From: Pedobacter sp. Leaf41
GTDB lineage: Bacteria; Bacteroidota; Bacteroidia; Sphingobacteriales; Sphingobacteriaceae
Assembly: GCF_001422545.1 (NCBI RefSeq)
Contig: NZ_LMLE01000001.1
Coordinates: 1,362,127 to 1,426,126 of the forward strand
DNA: 64,000 bases
Reading direction: 5' to 3'
The notes beneath the pieces are model-generated. The model saw only the letters and a list, made by a program, of their open reading frames with translations, made no database searches and was not told the DNA's origin. Both the position numbers and the translations under genes were made by a program. Positions 36,738 to 47,565 of this stretch are shown one piece after another. The stretch's first letter is position 1, and the number at the start of each line of letters is the position of its first letter.

Positions 36738-39170
36738 CTATTTTACTTTGGAAATAATTTCTGTTTGCGCCGCCTTTAAACCACCACCATTTACGTTTAA
36801 TTTTATTTTTCCCGGATTAACGGTCGACTCTACCAGAACAACCAGTTTTCCGCTAAATAATTTCATGGTAGGTTTCTCAAAACTCTCTAAAGATGTTGCA
36901 TCTCCATTACACACAGCTTTAAATTTTCCATTACCGCTCACATAAAACTTGAGTTGTTGACTAGCTGTAGGACATAGATTTCCGTCTTTATCAATGACCG
37001 AAACGGTAACAAAAGACAAATCTTTTCCATCTGCATCAATTACGCTGCGATCTGGAGTAAGTACAATTTTATAAGGCTTACCTGCAGTTACTATCTTTTC
37101 TTCCGCAGCAGGTTTACCTTGTGCATCGAAAGCTACAACTTTTAGCGTTCCCGGTTGATATTTTACATCCATCCACATCAATCTGTATCTATTCTGGGGT
37201 GATTTTTTGTCTTTTTTACGAATGCCGAGGCTTTTTCCATTCAAAAAAAGCTCAGCGCTATCATAGCTGGTGTAAACAAAAACAGGTGTAGTGTCTCCAG
37301 TTCTATTTTCCCAATTCCAATGTGGAAGTAAATGCAATGTTGGTTTAGTTTTGTTCCATCGGCTTCTGTATAAATAGAATCGGTCTTTTGGCAGACCTGC
37401 TAAATCAGAAATTCCGAAATATGAACTTCTTGAAGGCCAGCTATTATCGTAAGGTGTTGGCTCGCCCAGGTAGTCGAAGCCAGTCCATACAAACTCCCCG
37501 ATCACCCATGGTTTATCATCCTGCATTACAAAATCATCATCAGGAAGATTAGACCAGCTGCAGTATTCCATATCATAAGATGAAGATTGAAAATCATCAT
37601 ACTGTTTATCTTTGGCTTTGACCACGGGAAATTTATAAACCCCTCGCGAACTTACTGTAGAGGCGGTTTCAGAGCCTAAAATAAAACCTTGTGGGAAAGC
37701 CTTGTTGGCCTCCTCGTAAAGATGCACCCGATAATTTAATCCTGGAATATCAAGAAGTGCCCCGAAGCCAGATTGCATAGTGGCCTTAACCTGATCCATG
37801 CCTACGGTAACCGGACGAGTAGGATCTTCACGATGAAAAATTTCCTGTAACCATTTTGCCCGTTTAACCCCTTCAGCTCCAAACTGATCGGGTACTTCAT
37901 TTCCTGAACTCCACATCACAATACTCGGGTGGTTTTTGTTTGCCTGTACAAGATTTACGATATCTTTCTCAGCATCGGTATCGAAATACAAATGATAACC
38001 ATTTTCTACCTTTGCTTTTGCCCATTCATCGAAACTTTCTGCCAGGAACATAAATCCCATTTCATCGCAAAGCTCCAATTGTTCGGGTGATGGCATATTA
38101 TGCGAACTCCTGATTGCATCGCAACCCATATCTTTCAAGATGGTTAGTTGTCTGCGTAAGGCGGCCACATTAATCGCGGCTCCGAGCGGACCTAAATCAT
38201 GATGTAAACAAACACCTTTAAATTTTCGTACTTGTCCATTCAAACTGAAACCCTGATTGGCCTTAAAGCTAATGGTTCTGATGCCGAAACGCGTTTTAAC
38301 GATATCTTTTACCTGGTCACCATCGTATACTGTAGAAACAAGCGTGTATAAATATGGGTTTTCGGGGCTCCATAATCTTGGTTCAGAAACGCGAATATTC
38401 TGATCTGCCTCCTGTCCGAAAAAAGATTTTGTAGTATCTACAGCAACCTGTTTACCCGAACTATCCAAAACCTGATTAACCAGGCGCAAGTTTGAGCCAG
38501 TTAGTTTGGTTTTTACGTTCACCTTGGCGAATCCCTTTTCTACCACCGGTGTAGTGATGGTAATGCCCCATTGATCGATGCTTTTCTCTTCTTTGACGAT
38601 GAGGTGAACATTGCGATACAACCCTGCACCAGGATACCACCGGGAAGATTTTGGCTTGTTATTAAGGTGAATGGCCAGCACATTATCTTTTGATTTTAGT
38701 CCATGGGTAATGTCTATATAAAAATAATTGTAACCATAATTCCACTGCCCCACTTGCTTTCCGTTAAGGTAAACCCGGGGTTCGCTCATTGCACCATCGA
38801 TTTGTAGCAACACTTTTTGCGTTGAAGTAACGGCTGGAAGAATAAGTTTTTTTCTGTACCACCCTTCGCCAATATAGGGTAATGCACCCGTTCTACCTGT
38901 TTTTTCAGTAGGCTTAGTTTCACCGTTCTGCGTGATGGCAGTAACTTGTTTGTCTATTTCCTTATCGAAAGGACCAGAAATAGCCCAATCATGAGGAACC
39001 CGAACGCTTTGCCATTTACTGTCGTCAAAACCTGGTGCAGCTGCATCGGCAAAAGTGCCTTTAGAAAACTTCCAACCATCGTTAAGTACGATTTGATTTC
39101 TTTGCGCTAAACCCTGAAAATAAACGGATAAAAGAAGCGATAGGATTAAGATTACTTTGGGTTTGAACAT
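36738..39170 (-). CDS. GH2 beta-galactosidase, secreted
   Basis: This 810-residue enzyme has a signal peptide ending near QGLAQ. The domains are a sugar-binding sandwich (WYRKKLILP, DGAMSEPRVYLNGKQVG), an Ig-like domain, and a barrel from about 310 (FKGVCLHHDLGPLG, DAIRSSHNMPSPE). Acid/base is Glu425 in IVMWSSGNEVPDQ and the nucleophile Glu501 in FILGSETASTVSSRG; PWVIGEFVWTGFDYLGEP is strand eight. C-terminal Ig-like domains with SAELFLNGKSLG follow. This is the common beta-galactosidase branch of GH2 in Bacteroidota, suited to galactan side chains. It is transcribed alone, divergently from the AraC gene, and no tandem operator precedes it. Confidence 0.92.
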   Translation of the reverse strand: MFKPKVILILSLLLSVYFQGLAQRNQIVLNDGWKFSKGTFADAAAPGFDDSKWQSVRVPHDWAISGPFDKEIDKQVTAITQNGETKPTEKTGRTGALPYIGEGWYRKKLILPAVTSTQKVLLQIDGAMSEPRVYLNGKQVGQWNYGYNYFYIDITHGLKSKDNVLAIHLNNKPKSSRWYPGAGLYRNVHLIVKEEKSIDQWGITITTPVVEKGFAKVNVKTKLTGSNLRLVNQVLDSSGKQVAVDTTKSFFGQEADQNIRVSEPRLWSPENPYLYTLVSTVYDGDQVKDIVKTRFGIRTISFKANQGFSLNGQVRKFKGVCLHHDLGPLGAAINVAALRRQLTILKDMGCDAIRSSHNMPSPEQLELCDEMGFMFLAESFDEWAKAKVENGYHLYFDTDAEKDIVNLVQANKNHPSIVMWSSGNEVPDQFGAEGVKRAKWLQEIFHREDPTRPVTVGMDQVKATMQSGFGALLDIPGLNYRVHLYEEANKAFPQGFILGSETASTVSSRGVYKFPVVKAKDKQYDDFQSSSYDMEYCSWSNLPDDDFVMQDDKPWVIGEFVWTGFDYLGEPTPYDNSWPSRSSYFGISDLAGLPKDRFYLYRSRWNKTKPTLHLLPHWNWENRTGDTTPVFVYTSYDSAELFLNGKSLGIRKKDKKSPQNRYRLMWMDVKYQPGTLKVVAFDAQGKPAAEEKIVTAGKPYKIVLTPDRSVIDADGKDLSFVTVSVIDKDGNLCPTASQQLKFYVSGNGKFKAVCNGDATSLESFEKPTMKLFSGKLVVLVESTVNPGKIKLNVNGGGLKAAQTEIISKVK

Positions 39171-39392: not shown

Positions 39393-40289
39393 ATGACCTA
39401 TAAATTAAAATCAGACAAAAAGATAAAGGAGGGTTTTGTAGGCCAACAAATGATTGTTCTTCCACCGAATGTTAAAAATTCGGTTGTTAAGAATGATTTA
39501 ATTAATCAGTTGTATCTCACAGCCATAGGCTATTATCCACATGCGGTTTACCATAGCAGGGAGCGTAAACTCGGGTGCAGCGAATACATATTGCTCTTTT
39601 GTATCACAGGGAGCGGGTCTGTAACCATCGAAGATCAAAACTTTAAGCTTAATCCCAACCATTTCATCATTCTGCCGAAACAAGTTGGGCATAAATACGA
39701 AAGTTCACAAAGCAACCCGTGGACACTTTATTGGATACATTTTAAAGGCGCTAATGCTGATATTTTTTATCGTCGATACTTGGAAAATATCCAAACCCCT
39801 GTGTTCTCTGCGTATGATGAAAAAAGATTTCGAGAATTTGAGATGATGTTGAAAATACTCGGGAACAGCTTTGAGAATAGAGATTTAGAAATTGTAAACT
39901 TGAGCCTACAGAATTTCTTGGCACATTTAATCTATTCCAAAGAGATTAATCCATCCCATATCGAATTGGATAAAGTTGCCAGATCGATTGCATTTATGAA
40001 ACAAAATATTGCCATCAACTATTCGCTTCAGGATCTGGCAACCGCACAACTCTTGTCTGTAACCCACTATTCCAGACTTTTCAAAGCAAAAACCGGACGT
40101 TCTCCTAACCAATATTTTAACGAGTTGAAAATACAGAAGGCTTGCCAGTTTTTATATTTTAGTGATTTGAATATCAAGGAAATCTGTGTAGAGGTGGGTT
40201 TCTCTGATCAATATTATTTTTCACGATTATTTAAAAAAATGATGGGCATCGCTCCTGTTATATATAAAAACCAACATAAACGGTCTTAG
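39393..40289 (+). CDS. AraC-family transcriptional regulator, candidate PUL activator
   Basis: This 298-residue protein has no signal peptide and should be cytoplasmic. Residues about 50-160 form a cupin-like sensor (ILLFCITGSGSVTIEDQNF, then HFIILPKQVGHKYES). Residues about 195-295 carry the two helix-turn-helix units: INYSLQDLATAQLLSVTHYSRLFKAKTG and NIKEICVEVGFSDQYYFSRLFKKMMG, the second with the classic AraC GFSDQYYFSRLFK signature. It is the only DNA-binding regulator in the window, sits at the right edge of the RG-I locus and is divergent from a beta-galactosidase. I infer that it recognises a released sugar and may bind the four tandem decamer operators; direct proof is lacking. Confidence 0.93.
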   Translation: MTYKLKSDKKIKEGFVGQQMIVLPPNVKNSVVKNDLINQLYLTAIGYYPHAVYHSRERKLGCSEYILLFCITGSGSVTIEDQNFKLNPNHFIILPKQVGHKYESSQSNPWTLYWIHFKGANADIFYRRYLENIQTPVFSAYDEKRFREFEMMLKILGNSFENRDLEIVNLSLQNFLAHLIYSKEINPSHIELDKVARSIAFMKQNIAINYSLQDLATAQLLSVTHYSRLFKAKTGRSPNQYFNELKIQKACQFLYFSDLNIKEICVEVGFSDQYYFSRLFKKMMGIAPVIYKNQHKRS

Positions 40290-40380
40290 CAACAAACAAG
40301 AGCGATTAAAAAGGCAATAAAATAATAGATAGTTGAGGCGACAAAAATGAAAAATCGAAGTAAATCATATCTCTAATTAA

Positions 40381-43300
40381 TTATGTACTTGCCAACTTTC
40401 GCAAACCTTCAGTAGCCAAAAGCAGCGAATGACTTTTCGCTCCGAAATGCATTGCATCCAAATCAATAATAGAATTGAAAGTTTTGACCGCTTCATCTAT
40501 TTTCCCTAAACCCGCGAGTCCAAGTCCTGACATATACAAACAATGAATTTTATTCCGCAAATTCAGGTCATCATCAAAAATTAACAGGTTAGGCAATGAA
40601 ACAGCAAAATAGTCTAATACCACCTGGTCTTCCTGATGGGTTTGTCCATAAGAAAGCAAATCATTAAAGATAATATTAGCTTTATCATCCTCTCCGAGTT
40701 TTCTCCAGGCCAAACCCTGATAAAATATTTTATCGGGCTGTTGATCATTGTAAAACATTGCCGCCCCTAAAGCCGAATTTCCTTCAGTTGCCTTTTGATA
40801 ACAAGCGATTGCACTGTTACGATATTCTTCACCGGTATGCGATTCACTTAACCTTTCGTAACACACACCTAACCAATAAAATACATCATTTTCTGCTGCG
40901 CCATATAACTTTCCTTCACCCAAATTGTCTGGATATGTCTGCGCCTCCTGAAGCAAAGAAAGTGCATGATCATATTTACCTTCCATACCATAAGCTTTGG
41001 CCATTTCAGTCAAGGCGTACAAGTATTGACCAGAAACTTTGCCTTCACCACCTTCCCAAGGATGAAACTGCCTGGACATGATTAACTCGTAGGCCCTTTC
41101 ATGTTGACCGATAAAATTATAGATAGACAATCGTTCCAAATACAGATCATCACGTTGCAAGACTATTTCTAAATGTTCCTCCAGAAATTTAAGGCGCTCA
41201 GTAACTTCATAGTTTAATCTTTTGTACAACTGATCGAGTTCCATTAATACCCGTGCATCGGTTTTATCTAAATTAAAGGCTTTTTGAAAAGAAGCCAATG
41301 CTAAATTCGGCTGATTAAGTTTGTTAAAATAAGCGATACCGAGATTTCTATGAGCAGTGGGAAACTGATTGTCAATCGAAACGGACAGTTCCCAGCTTTT
41401 GATGGCCTCATGGTATTGACGCTTATCGTACCATAAATTACCGAGATAATACGGTGCCTTAGCATCTAATGTTTGATTGGCAATGGCATATTGCAACACC
41501 TTGATATCCGTAAGTTTATTTGGAAAACAGAGATAGGAATTCGCTTTAGAAGCGAGTTCAAGATAATGTTTTGCAATCTCGATCGTTCCATATTGAGCAG
41601 AGAACCAAGCGAGGTAATAATATACCATTGGAGAAGTATTTCCATTTCTTTCGGCCAGTTTCAAAAACCTGCCGGCTTCTCTAAATAATCCTGCAGCCGC
41701 ATAGTCGATGGCATATTCCAACAAATTATGTTCTGTACCCCGAGATAAAATCAACACTTGATTAAGATTCAATTTGGCTTCCTCGATATTGCCGATTGCC
41801 TCATTAATCAAATACCGTTCAAACCTCGCCCCTAAATTAAAACGATCTTTTTCTATAGCGGTTGAGCAAACAAGCAACGCTTTTTCATAATCCTTGAGAT
41901 ATCTCAACACCGTTGCTTTCAGTGCCCAGGCTTTGCTATTTCCCATGTTTCGGTTCAAAGCCAGATCTATATGTTCATCAGCCAGCTGATAATCTCCGCG
42001 GAAAACATCAATTTGGGAAATAGAGAAAAAGGCGGTATCCTGCCATGCTTTACTCCACGTAGCTTTATAGAAAGCACTATATGCCTCGCTAATTTGATCC
42101 TGATATTTTAGACAAAAGCCTAAATTGTAATAGGGTTCGCTATCGTAAGGATTGGGGTTTCTACCTATTGATGTTGCAACAGCTTTTTGAAAATAGGGTT
42201 CGGCTTTTTCAAACTGACCTCTGCGTAAATACCAAAGTCCGAGTGCGTTGTTGTTGCGCAAATCAGATGTATCCCTGTTTAAAGCTTCTTCATAGTATGG
42301 AACCGGGCTGAAAGTAGCGTGCCTGTACTGCTCCAAATGTTGACCAATCAAAAAAAGCTGTTCATTGCTCTTCACTTCTTTTGGCATTAAGGCTGGCATA
42401 GCCGCTTCTGGCATCTCATTTTTTTTGTTTTCAGCAGGCTGATAACGAATTAGTTCTTTTCCCTCTTCGTTCAAAACCTGAAACAACAGCTGTTTCTCAT
42501 CAAAATCAGCCTCAATCGCAATCAAATCCTCGAAAATTTCTTCGGGTTGAAGATTTACCTGATTGTTGTAACCCAATTTGCCTCCAATGGAAACGAGGAT
42601 TTTACTTGTAGGCTGAATAGAGGTTACCATTATTTTAAAGTGGAGTTTACTTTCTTCGGCAGTTACAGTAAGTAAAATATCTTTTGTTGCATTTTTTACT
42701 TTTCCAAGTTCGCGATAAGGCAGAAAATATTGGGTAAATGTTTTCTCCTCGTAAGGCATCAGCCAGGTAAAATCGGGCTGATTATCAGTGAATACTCCCG
42801 TCATCAGTTCAATATAGGGGCCGTCTTCATCAGTAAGGTTCCTATCCCAGGCTTGCCCGAAATCACTATAACCCCATGTCCATTGTTTTTTTCCTGGCGA
42901 AACATGGTGATTGGCTACATGCAATAGCCCCCCTTTTGAGTCGTGCTCATAGCCCCCCATAAAGTCGTAATCGGAGTTGATGGCCATATATGAGGTTGGA
43001 ACGGGAATGTTTTTATATCTGGAAATATCTGTTCCAGGAGAATAATCTACTTTGTAATATGTTCCTGTTGCAATTGGGAAGGAAGAAACATCACGTTTGC
43101 CGTGGTCGAAAACGGCATTCACATCCGGTGGGAAAATGGATTGATAATCATCGTTAACCTTTACTGCTGGATTTGCCCACCACAAAAAAGTTTGCGGTAA
43201 TGGTGTCCTATTAAACAATTTGGCCTTAATCTCTATGTATGCCCTATCTGGATGCAAGGTAAAACCGACCAATCCCTTCGTTCCAAACATCCTTTCCACC

Positions 43301-43752
43301 TCATTTACCCACACAGTTTTGCTTCCATCACTGTTTTCGCTGGTATCAAAATCAATCGCTTCGAAGGTGCTTGGTCTATGGTGCTGAGGCCAATTGAATT
43401 CAATTCCGCCCGAAATCCACGGTCCGGTCAATCCAACCAGCGCTGGTTTAATCACCTGGTTATAATATACAAAATGACGTTTTTTTATTTTATCGTAAGC
43501 CATTTGGATACGACCACCCAATTCGGGCAAGATCATAATCTTGATATAACGATTTTCCAAAAACAAGCCTTTGTAGGCCTTGTCTGTTTTTTCATCTTCA
43601 ATCTTTTCAATTACCGCGTTTGGATACACCACGCCGCTACTCCCCTGATAGACACGTTTCTCGAAAAACATAGGATTTTTATCAGGTTTACCGATACCGT
43701 AAGTAGGAATGATCACTTCTTCCTGCCAAACTTTTACCTCTGAAATACTCAT
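40381..43752 (-). CDS. DUF5107 domain protein with long TPR array, cytoplasmic
   Basis: The 1123-residue protein has no signal peptide. The first 400 residues match the DUF5107 type: a mutarotase-like beta-sandwich with ENRYIKIMILPELGGRIQMAYDK, GLTGPWISGGIEFNWPQHHRP, NRTPLPQTFLWWANPAVKV and KQWTWGYSDFGQAWDRNL. From about residue 480 to the end runs a series of TPR units (for example NALGLWYLRRGQFEKAEPYFQ, and AHRNLGIAYFNKLNQPNLAL). The mutarotase-like fold with conserved acid and Trp residues suggests carbohydrate binding or catalysis inside the cell. It follows a sugar importer by 14 bp and a secreted GH35, so a role on an imported galactoside or as a sensor scaffold fits, but nothing proves it. 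Confidence 0.8.
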   Translation of the reverse strand: MSISEVKVWQEEVIIPTYGIGKPDKNPMFFEKRVYQGSSGVVYPNAVIEKIEDEKTDKAYKGLFLENRYIKIMILPELGGRIQMAYDKIKKRHFVYYNQVIKPALVGLTGPWISGGIEFNWPQHHRPSTFEAIDFDTSENSDGSKTVWVNEVERMFGTKGLVGFTLHPDRAYIEIKAKLFNRTPLPQTFLWWANPAVKVNDDYQSIFPPDVNAVFDHGKRDVSSFPIATGTYYKVDYSPGTDISRYKNIPVPTSYMAINSDYDFMGGYEHDSKGGLLHVANHHVSPGKKQWTWGYSDFGQAWDRNLTDEDGPYIELMTGVFTDNQPDFTWLMPYEEKTFTQYFLPYRELGKVKNATKDILLTVTAEESKLHFKIMVTSIQPTSKILVSIGGKLGYNNQVNLQPEEIFEDLIAIEADFDEKQLLFQVLNEEGKELIRYQPAENKKNEMPEAAMPALMPKEVKSNEQLFLIGQHLEQYRHATFSPVPYYEEALNRDTSDLRNNNALGLWYLRRGQFEKAEPYFQKAVATSIGRNPNPYDSEPYYNLGFCLKYQDQISEAYSAFYKATWSKAWQDTAFFSISQIDVFRGDYQLADEHIDLALNRNMGNSKAWALKATVLRYLKDYEKALLVCSTAIEKDRFNLGARFERYLINEAIGNIEEAKLNLNQVLILSRGTEHNLLEYAIDYAAAGLFREAGRFLKLAERNGNTSPMVYYYLAWFSAQYGTIEIAKHYLELASKANSYLCFPNKLTDIKVLQYAIANQTLDAKAPYYLGNLWYDKRQYHEAIKSWELSVSIDNQFPTAHRNLGIAYFNKLNQPNLALASFQKAFNLDKTDARVLMELDQLYKRLNYEVTERLKFLEEHLEIVLQRDDLYLERLSIYNFIGQHERAYELIMSRQFHPWEGGEGKVSGQYLYALTEMAKAYGMEGKYDHALSLLQEAQTYPDNLGEGKLYGAAENDVFYWLGVCYERLSESHTGEEYRNSAIACYQKATEGNSALGAAMFYNDQQPDKIFYQGLAWRKLGEDDKANIIFNDLLSYGQTHQEDQVVLDYFAVSLPNLLIFDDDLNLRNKIHCLYMSGLGLAGLGKIDEAVKTFNSIIDLDAMHFGAKSHSLLLATEGLRKLAST

Positions 43753-43766
43753 TATTGATGTTAATT

Positions 43767-45116
43767 TTAATGTCCTACAAAAGTGCTTTCCAATTCCTCT
43801 AACGTTTTTCCTTTAGTTTCCCTTACCTTTTTCAACACGAACAAAAACCCAAGAAAGCATATTACCGCATACAGGTAAAAGGGCCCATAAGTACCGAGTT
43901 TTTCGGCTAAAATTGGAAAGGTGAAAACTAGAATAAAATAAGCTCCCCAAAGCGATACAATTGCTACAGAAGAAGCGAGCCCTCTAATATGATTGGGGAA
44001 TATTTCAGAAATCAATACCCAGGTAACCGGCGCCAAAGAGCTGGCATACATACTAATCGCAATGAGGACGAAAACAGAAACTAAACCCGCAGCGGCACCA
44101 CTTTGTAGCAAATATGCCAGTATAATATAGGTAATCGATAAACCAATTGAACCGAAAAGCATTAAAGGTTTCCGCCCGAGTTTGTCTACCTGCCACATGG
44201 CAAGGAACGTAAATACAAGATTTACAATTCCGATTGCAACGGTTTCGAAAAGCTGCCTATCTAAGCTGGCCCCAACAGATTCAAAGATGGTTGAAGTATA
44301 ATTGAAAACGACATTGATCCCACATAATTGCTGAAATACTGCAAGGGTAATCCCCACCAAAACTGCAGGGCGTACCGCTTTTGCAAAAACCGCCGCATAA
44401 CTTTGTTTCCCTGGATTTTCAGCATTGGAACGCTGAATATCATGCATTGTTGATTCTACGTATTGGGGGGTCCCAATTTTGTTCAGGATGGCTTTTGCTT
44501 TTTCAGCTTGCCCGGAAACAATTAACCATCTAGGGCTTTCTGGCAGCCAAATCACGCCTAACAAAAATAAAACTGATGGCACAACGCCCAAGCCAAACAT
44601 CCATCGCCAGGCATCAGGTCCAATATCTGCGAGTTTGTAGTTTACCAAATTGGTAATCAATATTCCAATAACAATCGTGAGTTGATTGATAGCCACATTT
44701 CTTCCTCTTACTTTTGCAGGAGATACCTCGGCGATATACATCGGGCTCAACATCGACGCCATACCTACACCTATACCAGCCGCAAACCTCATGGCTACAA
44801 ATACGCTTAAGGTTGTGGAAAAAGCCATGCCAACAGATGAAACAGCAAACACGATTGCAGCAATTGCAAGACCTGGTTTTCGCCCATATCCATCTGCAAT
44901 TTTTCCAGCAGCAAGGCAGCCGACAATACAACCTAGGGCCAATGAGCCCGTAAGAAAACCCTCCCACCAGGCATTAAGCAGAAATTCAGTTCTTAAAAAA
45001 GGTAATGCCCCTGAAATCACCGCGAAATCAAAACCAAATAAATATCCGCCAAGCGCTGATATAAAAGAAATTCCTATGATATAACCATTGTGAAATCCAG
45101 TATTTGTCTGTGTCAT
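43767..45116 (-). CDS. Sugar porter family MFS transporter (sugar:H+ symporter)
   Basis: This 449-residue inner-membrane protein has 12 predicted helices and the full sugar-porter signature set: GYLFGFDFAVISGALPFL in helix 1, GKIADGYGRKPG in loop 2-3, RFAAGIGVGMASMLSPMYIAE, PESPRWLIVSGQ after helix 6, QQLCGINVVFNYTSTIFE in helix 7, DKLGRKP, LAPVTWVLISEIFPNHIRG, and the tail ETKGKTLEELE. It resembles the XylE/GLUT branch and would import monosaccharides such as galactose, arabinose or xylose. It starts 1 bp after the GH35 stop codon, so galactose is the most plausible substrate. Confidence 0.95.
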   Translation of the reverse strand: MTQTNTGFHNGYIIGISFISALGGYLFGFDFAVISGALPFLRTEFLLNAWWEGFLTGSLALGCIVGCLAAGKIADGYGRKPGLAIAAIVFAVSSVGMAFSTTLSVFVAMRFAAGIGVGMASMLSPMYIAEVSPAKVRGRNVAINQLTIVIGILITNLVNYKLADIGPDAWRWMFGLGVVPSVLFLLGVIWLPESPRWLIVSGQAEKAKAILNKIGTPQYVESTMHDIQRSNAENPGKQSYAAVFAKAVRPAVLVGITLAVFQQLCGINVVFNYTSTIFESVGASLDRQLFETVAIGIVNLVFTFLAMWQVDKLGRKPLMLFGSIGLSITYIILAYLLQSGAAAGLVSVFVLIAISMYASSLAPVTWVLISEIFPNHIRGLASSVAIVSLWGAYFILVFTFPILAEKLGTYGPFYLYAVICFLGFLFVLKKVRETKGKTLEELESTFVGH

Positions 45117-45117
45117 T

Positions 45118-47565
45118 CTATTTTATTTTGATGGTAAAAGTGTATTCTGGAACAAAGATTAATTTTTTAATATCGACTAATTTGGAGTCTCTTTCAAACT
45201 TAGGTAGAGCCTGTGGTAACAGATCTACCAAGTATGGGGCTGTTTTGTAAATAGGTCTGAAATAAAACTGGAGTTCATTTGATTTCGACTGCCCGATAAA
45301 CTGCTTCAAACCAATATTCCATGGAAGCCCTTTATAAAAATCATCTGCAACCAGCGTATTATCAAGATAAGCTAAGCCAACATCACCCAAGTAATCAATA
45401 TTTAGAAAAATATCATTCAATCCCTTTTCTAAAACCGGCAGCTTAACCTGAACCTTATCTTTTGCTGTTGAATTTTTATCCAATACAGGACTAACCTCAG
45501 GAACTGAAACCGTATAGTGATCGGTAGGAAAATTATCCTTCTGTACCTTCATCTCAGAAGTATTTTCAAAAACTAAACTTCCCTTGGGATAGACTGATAA
45601 ATTAAAATTCGCTTTTCCTAAAGAGAGGAGTTGCAATTGATCTTTATCTTTTAAAATAATGGCCTCAGAAAAGCAAATGGCTTTTTGATCGTCAGCTGAT
45701 ATCACATAGGATTGCAATGCTTTTGCTTTGGAAACGATCAAGATCTTCGTTTTTTTCCCCGCCAGCTCTATGCTGACCTCTGCGAAAGACTTTAGATCTG
45801 GTAGAATTTTGATTGTGTTGCCGACTTGCGAAACTTTACAATTGCTGAGGTTAACTATCTTAAGCCCTGCTGACTTTGTAAACACCAACTCTGCAGGTTG
45901 TTGTCCATCAGCGAAAAAAACGTAATAAGGATTTGCACCATTAGACTTGGTGAGCAGCTGGGCAGTTGCATACTTCAGGTTTGCCCCATTAATATTGAGG
46001 TTAAAGGGATATATAGCATTCTCTCCACTTTTCAGATTGACTGGAACAGAAATTTTCCTGGTTTTGGTATTGAGGTTTACCATTAATCCAGATTTATCGG
46101 TCGGTTTTGCATCATCCTGAAAGTTATTGATAAAAAGAAAACCACTTTTTCCATCAGACCTTACCGAATAGCGTAACGTTTCTAAGTTTTCTGATTTAAT
46201 TTTATTATTATCTGGCGGTAATGTGACCGCCATCGGAGCCAGAAGATAGCCAAATTCTTTCAAGAAGAAATGGATCAGTTTTAAGCGGTGGAACGCTGGC
46301 CTAATCTGCCCATACTCACCAATAGGAGCCTGAAAATCGTATGAAATCTTCGGGTAACCATAAGTTTCATCACTAAAATAAAATTCACCTTTTGGTGTAG
46401 AACCACCATGATACATGTAATAACCCAGGCCATTGGCCGCACTTCCTAAACACCTATTAATTAAGGCATCCATACTTTCGGCAGCAACTGTGGGCCTTCT
46501 ACTATAGGTACTCATAATTCCTGAACCAAGCTCTGCTGCAAATGCTGGATAAGCTTGCGGATTATAACTTATTGGAGCGTAATCGGGAACTTTGGTCATA
46601 TCCTTGTACAAGAAAAATGGTGAAATATCGGCCTTCTCTGTCCATGTTGGATAAGCATAAGCAGCGGTAACGGGCAGGCTTTCATTTTCAACGATGGCAG
46701 CATTTCCCCAACCGGTGGCGGTATACAATGGGGTTATTATCCCGTTTTTAATGGCAAGACTTTTAAGCATTTTCATATGATCCTGACCAAGTGCGGCATA
46801 TGGATTTTTAACATCGGAAACCGCTACACCCTGATGGGTAACAGCACGATCTCTTGCCGAAGCTGTGAAATCGTAAGGCTCTCCAGGATAAGATATTCCC
46901 CATGGCGCAGCAGAGTGCTGGTATTCGTTTTCTAACTGCGTGGCTACAACGGGGCCGCCATCTTTAAAAAACAGGCCTTTCATTTGTTTGCCAATTTCAT
47001 TATACAGCCTATCTACGTAGCCCAAATATCCAGCATCATTGGATCTAATTGAAAATGGCTTTGACAGTAACCAGTCTGGCAAACCACCATTTCTAATTTC
47101 TCCATGGCAGAATGGTCCGATCCTGATGATCACCTGAATATCGTTCGCTTTGCATAGTTGAAGAAACTTTCTTAGATTTCTGTTACCAGTCCACTTGAAG
47201 CTACCTTCTTTTTCTTCATGCATGTTCCAGAAAACATAGGTAGCAATCATGGAGATGCCACCTGCCTTCATTTTCTTAATAGATTCGCCCCAATAAGTTT
47301 CAGCGTATCTACTAAAATGAAACTCCCCAGTAATTGGAATTATAGCCTGATTATTATAGGAAATAAAGTAGTTGTTTACCTCGATTTTATTTCCTTGTGG
47401 ATCAACACCTCCCAGATTAAGTTGACCATTAACAATCTCTTTTGCGGCATTGGAAATATCAATATTATATTTTTTTTGCTGTGCTGAAGCAAAGTTTAGA
47501 GAAAGGGCCGACAGCAAAAACGCCAAAGCCTTCGGATAGTATATTTTTTTAATGCTCAGAAACAT
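45118..47565 (-). CDS. GH35 beta-galactosidase, secreted
   Basis: The product has 815 residues with a signal peptide ending near NFASAQ. The GH35 barrel shows PITGEFHFSRYAETYWGESI, ATYVFWNMHEEKEGSFKWTG, IRIGPFCHGEIRNGGLPDWL, VVATQLENEYQ (acid/base Glu214) and AFAAELGSGI (nucleophile Glu345). C-terminal beta domains end with NIGLKQFIGQ. The enzyme should release terminal beta-galactose from galactan or arabinogalactan. It is the first gene of an operon with a sugar porter and a DUF5107 protein. The 269-bp upstream gap to the alcohol dehydrogenase holds a promoter-like element and the dehydrogenase terminator but no tandem operator, so it is probably under separate control. Confidence 0.93.
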   Translation of the reverse strand: MFLSIKKIYYPKALAFLLSALSLNFASAQQKKYNIDISNAAKEIVNGQLNLGGVDPQGNKIEVNNYFISYNNQAIIPITGEFHFSRYAETYWGESIKKMKAGGISMIATYVFWNMHEEKEGSFKWTGNRNLRKFLQLCKANDIQVIIRIGPFCHGEIRNGGLPDWLLSKPFSIRSNDAGYLGYVDRLYNEIGKQMKGLFFKDGGPVVATQLENEYQHSAAPWGISYPGEPYDFTASARDRAVTHQGVAVSDVKNPYAALGQDHMKMLKSLAIKNGIITPLYTATGWGNAAIVENESLPVTAAYAYPTWTEKADISPFFLYKDMTKVPDYAPISYNPQAYPAFAAELGSGIMSTYSRRPTVAAESMDALINRCLGSAANGLGYYMYHGGSTPKGEFYFSDETYGYPKISYDFQAPIGEYGQIRPAFHRLKLIHFFLKEFGYLLAPMAVTLPPDNNKIKSENLETLRYSVRSDGKSGFLFINNFQDDAKPTDKSGLMVNLNTKTRKISVPVNLKSGENAIYPFNLNINGANLKYATAQLLTKSNGANPYYVFFADGQQPAELVFTKSAGLKIVNLSNCKVSQVGNTIKILPDLKSFAEVSIELAGKKTKILIVSKAKALQSYVISADDQKAICFSEAIILKDKDQLQLLSLGKANFNLSVYPKGSLVFENTSEMKVQKDNFPTDHYTVSVPEVSPVLDKNSTAKDKVQVKLPVLEKGLNDIFLNIDYLGDVGLAYLDNTLVADDFYKGLPWNIGLKQFIGQSKSNELQFYFRPIYKTAPYLVDLLPQALPKFERDSKLVDIKKLIFVPEYTFTIKIK

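Follow-up and report, generated by a model that had tools for sequence, protein, structure and literature searches.

What might a large, apparently cytoplasmic protein be doing in an operon that otherwise encodes a secreted glycosidase and a sugar importer? The window, by which we mean the whole stretch of 64,000 nucleotides that was analysed, raises this question through three consecutive minus-strand open reading frames with intergenic gaps of 1 and 14 bp: a GH35 gene, a sugar porter gene and a gene for a protein of 1123 residues that joins a DUF5107 domain to a long TPR part. The main features of the region are as follows.

45118..47565, minus strand: GH35 gene, 815 aa, signal-peptide-like start, first in the operon (GH35 in Pfam, 205.8 bits; cut-off 27)
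43767..45116, minus strand: sugar porter (MFS), 449 aa, the most constant partner (Sugar_tr, 380 bits; cut-off 22.3)
40381..43752, minus strand: YphG-type DUF5107/TPR protein, 1123 aa, no signal peptide seen (PF17128 and identity to YphG)
42721..43632, minus strand: DUF5107 domain, aa 41-344 (PF17128, 185.8 bits; gathering cut-off 24.4)
39393..40289, plus strand: AraC-type regulator, nearest gene beyond the operon end (Pfam)
36738..39170, minus strand: GH2 beta-galactosidase (NCBIfam GalB, 901.2 bits, just over the cut-off of 900)

The original prediction had described a tight operon of these three genes whose last product lacks a signal peptide, and both points hold: the reading frames, their spacing and the Pfam labels agree, and no signal peptide was seen at the N-terminus of the DUF5107 protein (MSISEVKVWQEEV...) or in the 12 of 82 orthologous N-termini that were inspected, as judged by eye rather than with a predictor and with some gene starts over-extended. 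By the same visual judgement (at most 12 sequences per cluster), GH35 and most hydrolases from related loci have signal-peptide-like starts, and the importer, DUF5107/TPR, epimerase and galT genes have none. The porter, at 365.7 bits against a TIGR00879 cut-off of 237.8 (NCBIfam), belongs to the sugar porter family. The AraC-type gene runs towards the DUF5107 gene (convergent) and away from the GH2 gene (divergent), beyond which lie a GDSL esterase-like gene, GH127 and GH43 (Pfam). No Bacteroidota-type promoter was found upstream of the operon with a motif that matched three times in the window against 3.95 expected. One terminator-like site occurs in 40250-40500 against 0.3 expected; since it falls inside the 3' end of the DUF5107 gene, we do not count it as evidence. 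Further along, positions 674-36453 hold a large polysaccharide-utilisation cluster with SusC/SusD, GH106, GH31, GH88, GH2, GH43, GH127 and GDSL genes and two proteins with alpha-L-arabinofuranosidase C-terminal domains, which looks like a rhamnogalacturonan or arabinogalactan locus.

The 1123-aa protein is 40% identical to E. coli YphG across 1093 aa, with an identical two-part architecture and homology over the whole length, and on this sequence comparison we regard it as the Bacteroidota counterpart of YphG. For scale, matches in its own genome to E. coli GalK and GalT are 35-36% and 48% identical, respectively; the genome holds one DUF5107 match. The resemblance is concentrated in aa 1-355, where identity reaches 67.1% with E. 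coli YphG, 69.5% with a Klebsiella protein and 65.9% with a Cetobacterium protein, against 27.6%, 33.2% and 40.4% for the TPR part. A new carbohydrate-active family, or else a sugar-sensing scaffold, had been suggested, and as to novelty this calls for correction: the family is already named in databases as DUF5107/YphG, and it counts a protein of E. coli and a distant relative of solved structure among its members, but it is uncharacterised, and the RefSeq name of the E. coli counterpart, 'DUF5107 domain-containing protein YphG', gives no function. No glycoside hydrolase profile matched the protein at E<=0.001 in Pfam or NCBIfam, nor did the aldose epimerase profile PF01263 at the same threshold in Pfam, and a search of viral contigs added no more diverse relatives.

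Three lines of evidence, from sequence, from a domain model and from bridge proteins, agree that the DUF5107 domain is most probably a galactose-mutarotase-like sandwich. The best structural match of the domain model is PDB 5cd6 (Z 17.7, rmsd 4.0, 271 residues aligned), followed by several mutarotases (aldose 1-epimerases and galactose mutarotases) at Z 11-14, values obtained with a poor model (mean pLDDT 59.6). Foldseek with the same model gave E values of 2.7e-10 for 5cd6 and 7.3e-6 for GalM; with the full-length model other TPR proteins dominate and 5cd6 ranks 19th. In sequence, 5cd6 matches the domain with a phmmer E value of 4e-19. The mutarotase-like look claimed at the outset is thus borne out, on a weak model. 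Confidence in the pocket region was below 50 pLDDT in both AlphaFold models (41 and 69 close relatives as input), probably because the input relatives are too alike. In the structure lists, GalM rows are mixed with rows for mutarotase-like domains from GH38, GH2 and GH36 enzymes, and therefore the fold alone names no function.

The sequence link to GalM runs through proteins of about 320-330 aa (L137:682-1650, L138:1468-2421 and L140:670-1659, which also have weaker DUF4432 matches) that appear, from their profile matches, to be useful bridge members of the mutarotase superfamily. All three of those scanned match PF17128 (E about 1e-7), and two of the three also match PF01263 (about 2e-8). HHalign connects DUF5107 to the bridge with a probability of 97.2% (E 3e-11), and its bridge-to-GalM step is weak (16.8%, E 0.0015), yet the motifs align. 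A direct HHalign comparison of the DUF5107 domain with an aldose-epimerase alignment gave no link (0.8%), and HMMER with an epimerase profile of our own found none of five bridge proteins.

Conservation in the putative pocket was followed in 64 YphG-type rows, which fall into 60 clusters at >99% identity, and in a further 17 rows from more distant DUF5107 proteins (L145-L160 and L173). Three of its residues are encoded at these positions, all within the DUF5107 domain.

42808-42810, minus strand: E315 codon
43171-43173, minus strand: N194 codon
43378-43380, minus strand: H125 codon

None of the 81 rows departs from E118, H125, W192, H217, K289, W291, Y313 or E315. The conserved acidic and Trp residues that had been pointed out are thus real, with E118, W192, W291 and E315 found in 64/64 and 17/17 rows, and 137 of the 195 invariant positions lie within aa 1-355. 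Through the bridge, whose last alignment step is weak, E315 aligns with the mutarotase catalytic Glu in all 64 YphG-type rows, H124, which adjoins the more widely kept H125, aligns with the first mutarotase His, and N194 stands where GalM has its second catalytic His, which we take to be the general acid H170 of L. lactis GalM. Asn, not His, occupies this position in every YphG-type row and in 14 of the 17 more distant ones. An ordinary aldose mutarotase with a TPR tail would share the fold, the Glu and the first His, all of which are present. Because Asn replaces the second His (64/64 rows, mapped through the weak step), the protein is not expected to be one; 40 of 80 loci moreover encode a separate aldose epimerase within the operon, PF01263 gave no match at E 0.001, and we consider this explanation very unlikely.

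The TPR part has features of its own, of which two are placed here.

40387..42366, minus strand: TPR helical part, aa 463-1122 (Pfam TPR families and helices in the predicted structure)
41041..41064, minus strand: loop HPWEGGEG, aa 897-904, identical in all 64 YphG-type rows

An array of about 640 residues had been predicted, and the predicted helices extend over about 660. Within aa 461-1123 there are 56 invariant positions, 31 of which fall in loops that cover 190 of the 663 positions (hypergeometric p 1e-5, a statistic weakened by the fact that Gly, Pro and Asn favour loops anyway). Many of the invariant residues cluster at aa 472-487, 896-904 (FHPWEGGEG), 941-955, 1001-1002 and 1049-1054. 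In the 17 more distant rows P898 and E900 are each kept in 15, P941 in 17 and G947 in 16; E903, N1002 and D1003 are not kept there. This conservation appears to exceed what a generic TPR scaffold would need, and the loops may close over the pocket, whose pLDDT is below 50 in both models. The expectation that the TPR array serves protein interaction is accordingly kept in part: the long array is there, and its invariant loops are compatible with a composite active site as well as with the binding of other proteins. In its strongest form, a composite site would make these proteins a new class of carbohydrate-active enzyme, in which sandwich and superhelix jointly form the active site and carry out non-anomeric chemistry on a free aldose just after its import, an unrecognised step in the use of galactose-type sugars in Bacteroidota, Fusobacteriota and Enterobacteriaceae (YphG included). 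We regard this as possible but doubtful.

An operon context that is not conserved in related genomes had been named beforehand as something that would refute the original prediction; the context proved to be conserved, and the prediction was not refuted on this count. Near relatives were sampled as the best 80 of 203 related stretches from genome contigs, which at 58-70% identity are biased to close kin. Of the 78 loci in which an open reading frame precedes the DUF5107 gene, 76 have the sugar porter gene there, directly adjacent and in the same orientation; L064 and L094 are the exceptions. With operons defined by gaps under 250 bp, and families assigned from one representative per cluster, an aldose 1-epimerase occurs in 40/80 operons, and GH36, GH36-like, GH97, GH35, GH2-type enzymes or GalT in 54/80; one or the other is found in 64/80, and neither in the remaining 16, five of which are short or cut near the gene. 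GH35 itself is present in 10/78 operons, and the window's exact gene order, GH35 then porter then DUF5107, is found again in L044, L090, L170 and L174; galT is found in three loci, and an AraC-type gene within seven open reading frames in 60/78. The galactoside context is supported, but it is the importer, often accompanied by an aldose 1-epimerase, and not GH35 that forms the constant partner. Porter and DUF5107 distances correlate (r 0.76 over 76 loci), as they might through common descent alone. In 11 of the loci (cluster c10; for example L050:6360-8606) a secreted-looking protein of about 748 aa adjoins the module; it matches nothing in Pfam at E 0.01, its sequence ties it only weakly to alpha-galactosidases of the GH36 type (1zy9, for instance, at E 4e-4), and it is possibly an unlisted GH36 branch.

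A separate draw of 296 Bacteroidota genomes gave 35 with a DUF5107 match, 29 of them over the family cut-off. Apart from the window's own, 13 loci from this draw encode a protein of about 1100 aa, 12 at 53-64% identity to the window protein and L173 at 32%. The porter is directly upstream in 8/13 and within two genes in 10/13, with none within two genes in L164, L168 and L173; several of these porters are only 42-45% identical to that of the window, and L161 additionally has an aldose epimerase and a galE relative. At the level of whole genomes, a search of 99 (the window's own and 98 relatives) that scores a limited number of candidates per genome found a porter orthologue (E<=1e-100, at least 67% identity) in 13, all 13 of which also have a DUF5107 orthologue; 85 lack both the porter and a full YphG-type match. 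Fisher's test gives p 2e-15 when shared ancestry is ignored; the 13 porter-bearing genomes, being all of one genus, are not independent events. In the one other genome, G036, DUF5107 is on a short contig and no porter matched. G048, counted among the 85, carries a decayed YphG-type gene (contig 1, 1145732-1146544; L019) in fragments in several frames with stops and has no porter match, a possible joint loss of the pair, and the match in G059 contains one stop codon.

More distant Bacteroidota DUF5107 proteins (mostly about 1040 aa) are about 25% identical to the window protein and share most pocket residues together with P898, E900, P941 and G947. No gene labelled as a porter relative occurs in the 16 neighbourhoods of L145-L160, and ten neighbours scanned from seven of these comprise GH123, M1 peptidase, cytochrome c, FG-GAP/UnbV, beta-helix, PhyH, molybdopterin oxidoreductase and GH43. 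Since these neighbours differ, this clade probably has another role.

The module reaches beyond Bacteroidota. In E. coli K-12 the order is yphG, an ABC importer (yphFED), yphC and yphB, the last being an aldose 1-epimerase. A search of a plasmid collection matched 10 records, of which three were examined. The Klebsiella match lies in a chromosome-like block of a plasmid record, with the gene order ROK regulator, DUF5107, sugar porter, aldose 1-epimerase, and the porter there is 45% identical to the window porter, compared with 34% for AraE and for the available part of GalP. In the Cetobacterium record DUF5107 is accompanied by ABC sugar importer genes, an AraC gene and an aldose 1-epimerase, and for the unannotated Phocaeicola record our own labels of open reading frames give porter, DUF5107 and GH2. 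Near glyA/hmp, the Klebsiella and E. coli loci (L143 and L002) share a ROK regulator, the DUF5107 gene and an aldose 1-epimerase; the place taken in E. coli by an ABC importer and a dehydrogenase is filled in Klebsiella by an MFS porter. The recurring set is thus an importer with DUF5107/TPR, often joined by an aldose 1-epimerase, and the types of importer and regulator vary.

Because the importer adjoins in most of the genomes examined, often with an epimerase or galactose-releasing enzymes, DUF5107/TPR probably handles imported sugar. That this would be an aldose is suggested by the varied secreted-looking galactosidases, which likely share galactose or a galactose-like aldose as product (the GH97 and GH2 families have other specificities too), and galT and the galE relative agree. 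The porter could instead import an intact galactoside for DUF5107/TPR to split as a cytoplasmic glycosidase or phosphorylase, the epimerase then equilibrating the galactose. Glycosidases that combine a sandwich with a helical barrel exist, two carboxylates in the domain (E118 and E315) are invariant, and an aldose 1-epimerase recurs alongside. The neighbouring alpha- and beta-galactosidases, however, look secreted (by eye), which makes free galactose the likely common product; the sugar porter family normally carries monosaccharides; and neither Pfam nor NCBIfam gave a match to a GH family. We therefore consider a glycosidase or phosphorylase unlikely. A further candidate role, as a substitute for a missing Leloir step, was dropped: a search for galK, galT and aldose epimerases located the first two, and four of the last, elsewhere in the genome, so that no galactose-breakdown step is obviously missing, and by the same token the chemical step is not obvious.

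This redundancy would also suit a protein with no catalytic role. Such a sensor or scaffold would bind the imported sugar in its pocket and signal through the TPR part to the importer, to an AraC or ROK regulator or to pathway enzymes. TPR parts usually bind proteins, the pairing with the importer is tight, and the mutarotase His is Asn in 64/64 rows. Across phyla, however, both the importer (MFS or ABC) and the regulator (AraC or ROK) change, leaving no constant protein partner, the catalytic Glu is retained, and the pocket is 67% conserved against 28% for the TPR part, the reverse of what a TPR interaction hub would lead one to expect. The much stronger constraint on the pocket than on the TPR surface, together with the change of importer and regulator between phyla, leads us to favour an enzyme, and we rate a sensor or scaffold as rather doubtful.

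Our tentative preference is thus for a YphG-type cytoplasmic protein dedicated to imported sugar, which would chemically change a galactose-like aldose in a mutarotase-type pocket. Secreted galactosidases (here GH35) would release galactose or a galactose-like aldose, which the porter would import and the DUF5107 domain would bind. DUF5107/TPR would then most likely alter the sugar chemically with E315 as the predicted base, and one or more of E118, H125, H217, K289 and D308 may stand in for the missing mutarotase His. The TPR superhelix could fold back so that the loops at aa 472-487, 896-904, 941-955, 1001-1002 and 1049-1054 line or cap the pocket, and the aldose 1-epimerase that roughly half of the loci encode in addition would equilibrate the anomers. 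If the protein is an enzyme, bacteria of three or more phyla share a sugar-use step that has so far escaped notice, and a TPR solenoid may have been recruited into its active site; if it is a sensor, it would represent a new way of coupling sugar import to regulation.

Among known systems, GalM (aldose 1-epimerase, PF01263) corresponds to the DUF5107 domain in fold, in the Glu and in one His; DUF5107/TPR differs in its Asn for the second catalytic His, in its large TPR part and in having true aldose epimerases alongside. The solved relative, BDI_1685 of Parabacteroides distasonis (5cd6), has identical partners for E118, H125, W192, N194, H217, K289, W291, Y313 and E315. It is shorter (575-580 aa), with a much smaller helical part, N120 and D308 are not matched in it, and its title gives no function. 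In the literature, a search with subscription journals mostly outside its scope showed, among the papers listed and judged by their titles and the openings of their abstracts, no functional study of the DUF5107/YphG family. A table of protist orthogroups lists DUF5107 as of unknown function (PMC8163842), YphG has served as a PCR marker for K. pneumoniae in a report whose passages on it give no function (PMC10569728), and YphF is reported among the transporters raised on levoglucosan in engineered E. coli (PMC8753852).

Also among the closest known systems is E. coli YphG itself (b2549, NP_417044), which is similar in length, has the same two-part architecture and adjoins sugar importer genes. 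The yph locus differs in its ABC importer, zinc dehydrogenase and ROK regulator, with no galactosidases in the stretch shown, and given the dehydrogenase YphC and the ABC importer the sugar there may differ too. YphG is a 1093-aa protein of E. coli K-12 without an assigned function, and the module context, an importer, DUF5107/TPR and often an epimerase, with galactosidase-type enzymes, galT or galE nearby, supplies a concrete substrate hypothesis for it. The module is real, conserved and uncharacterised, and it makes this E. coli orphan testable.
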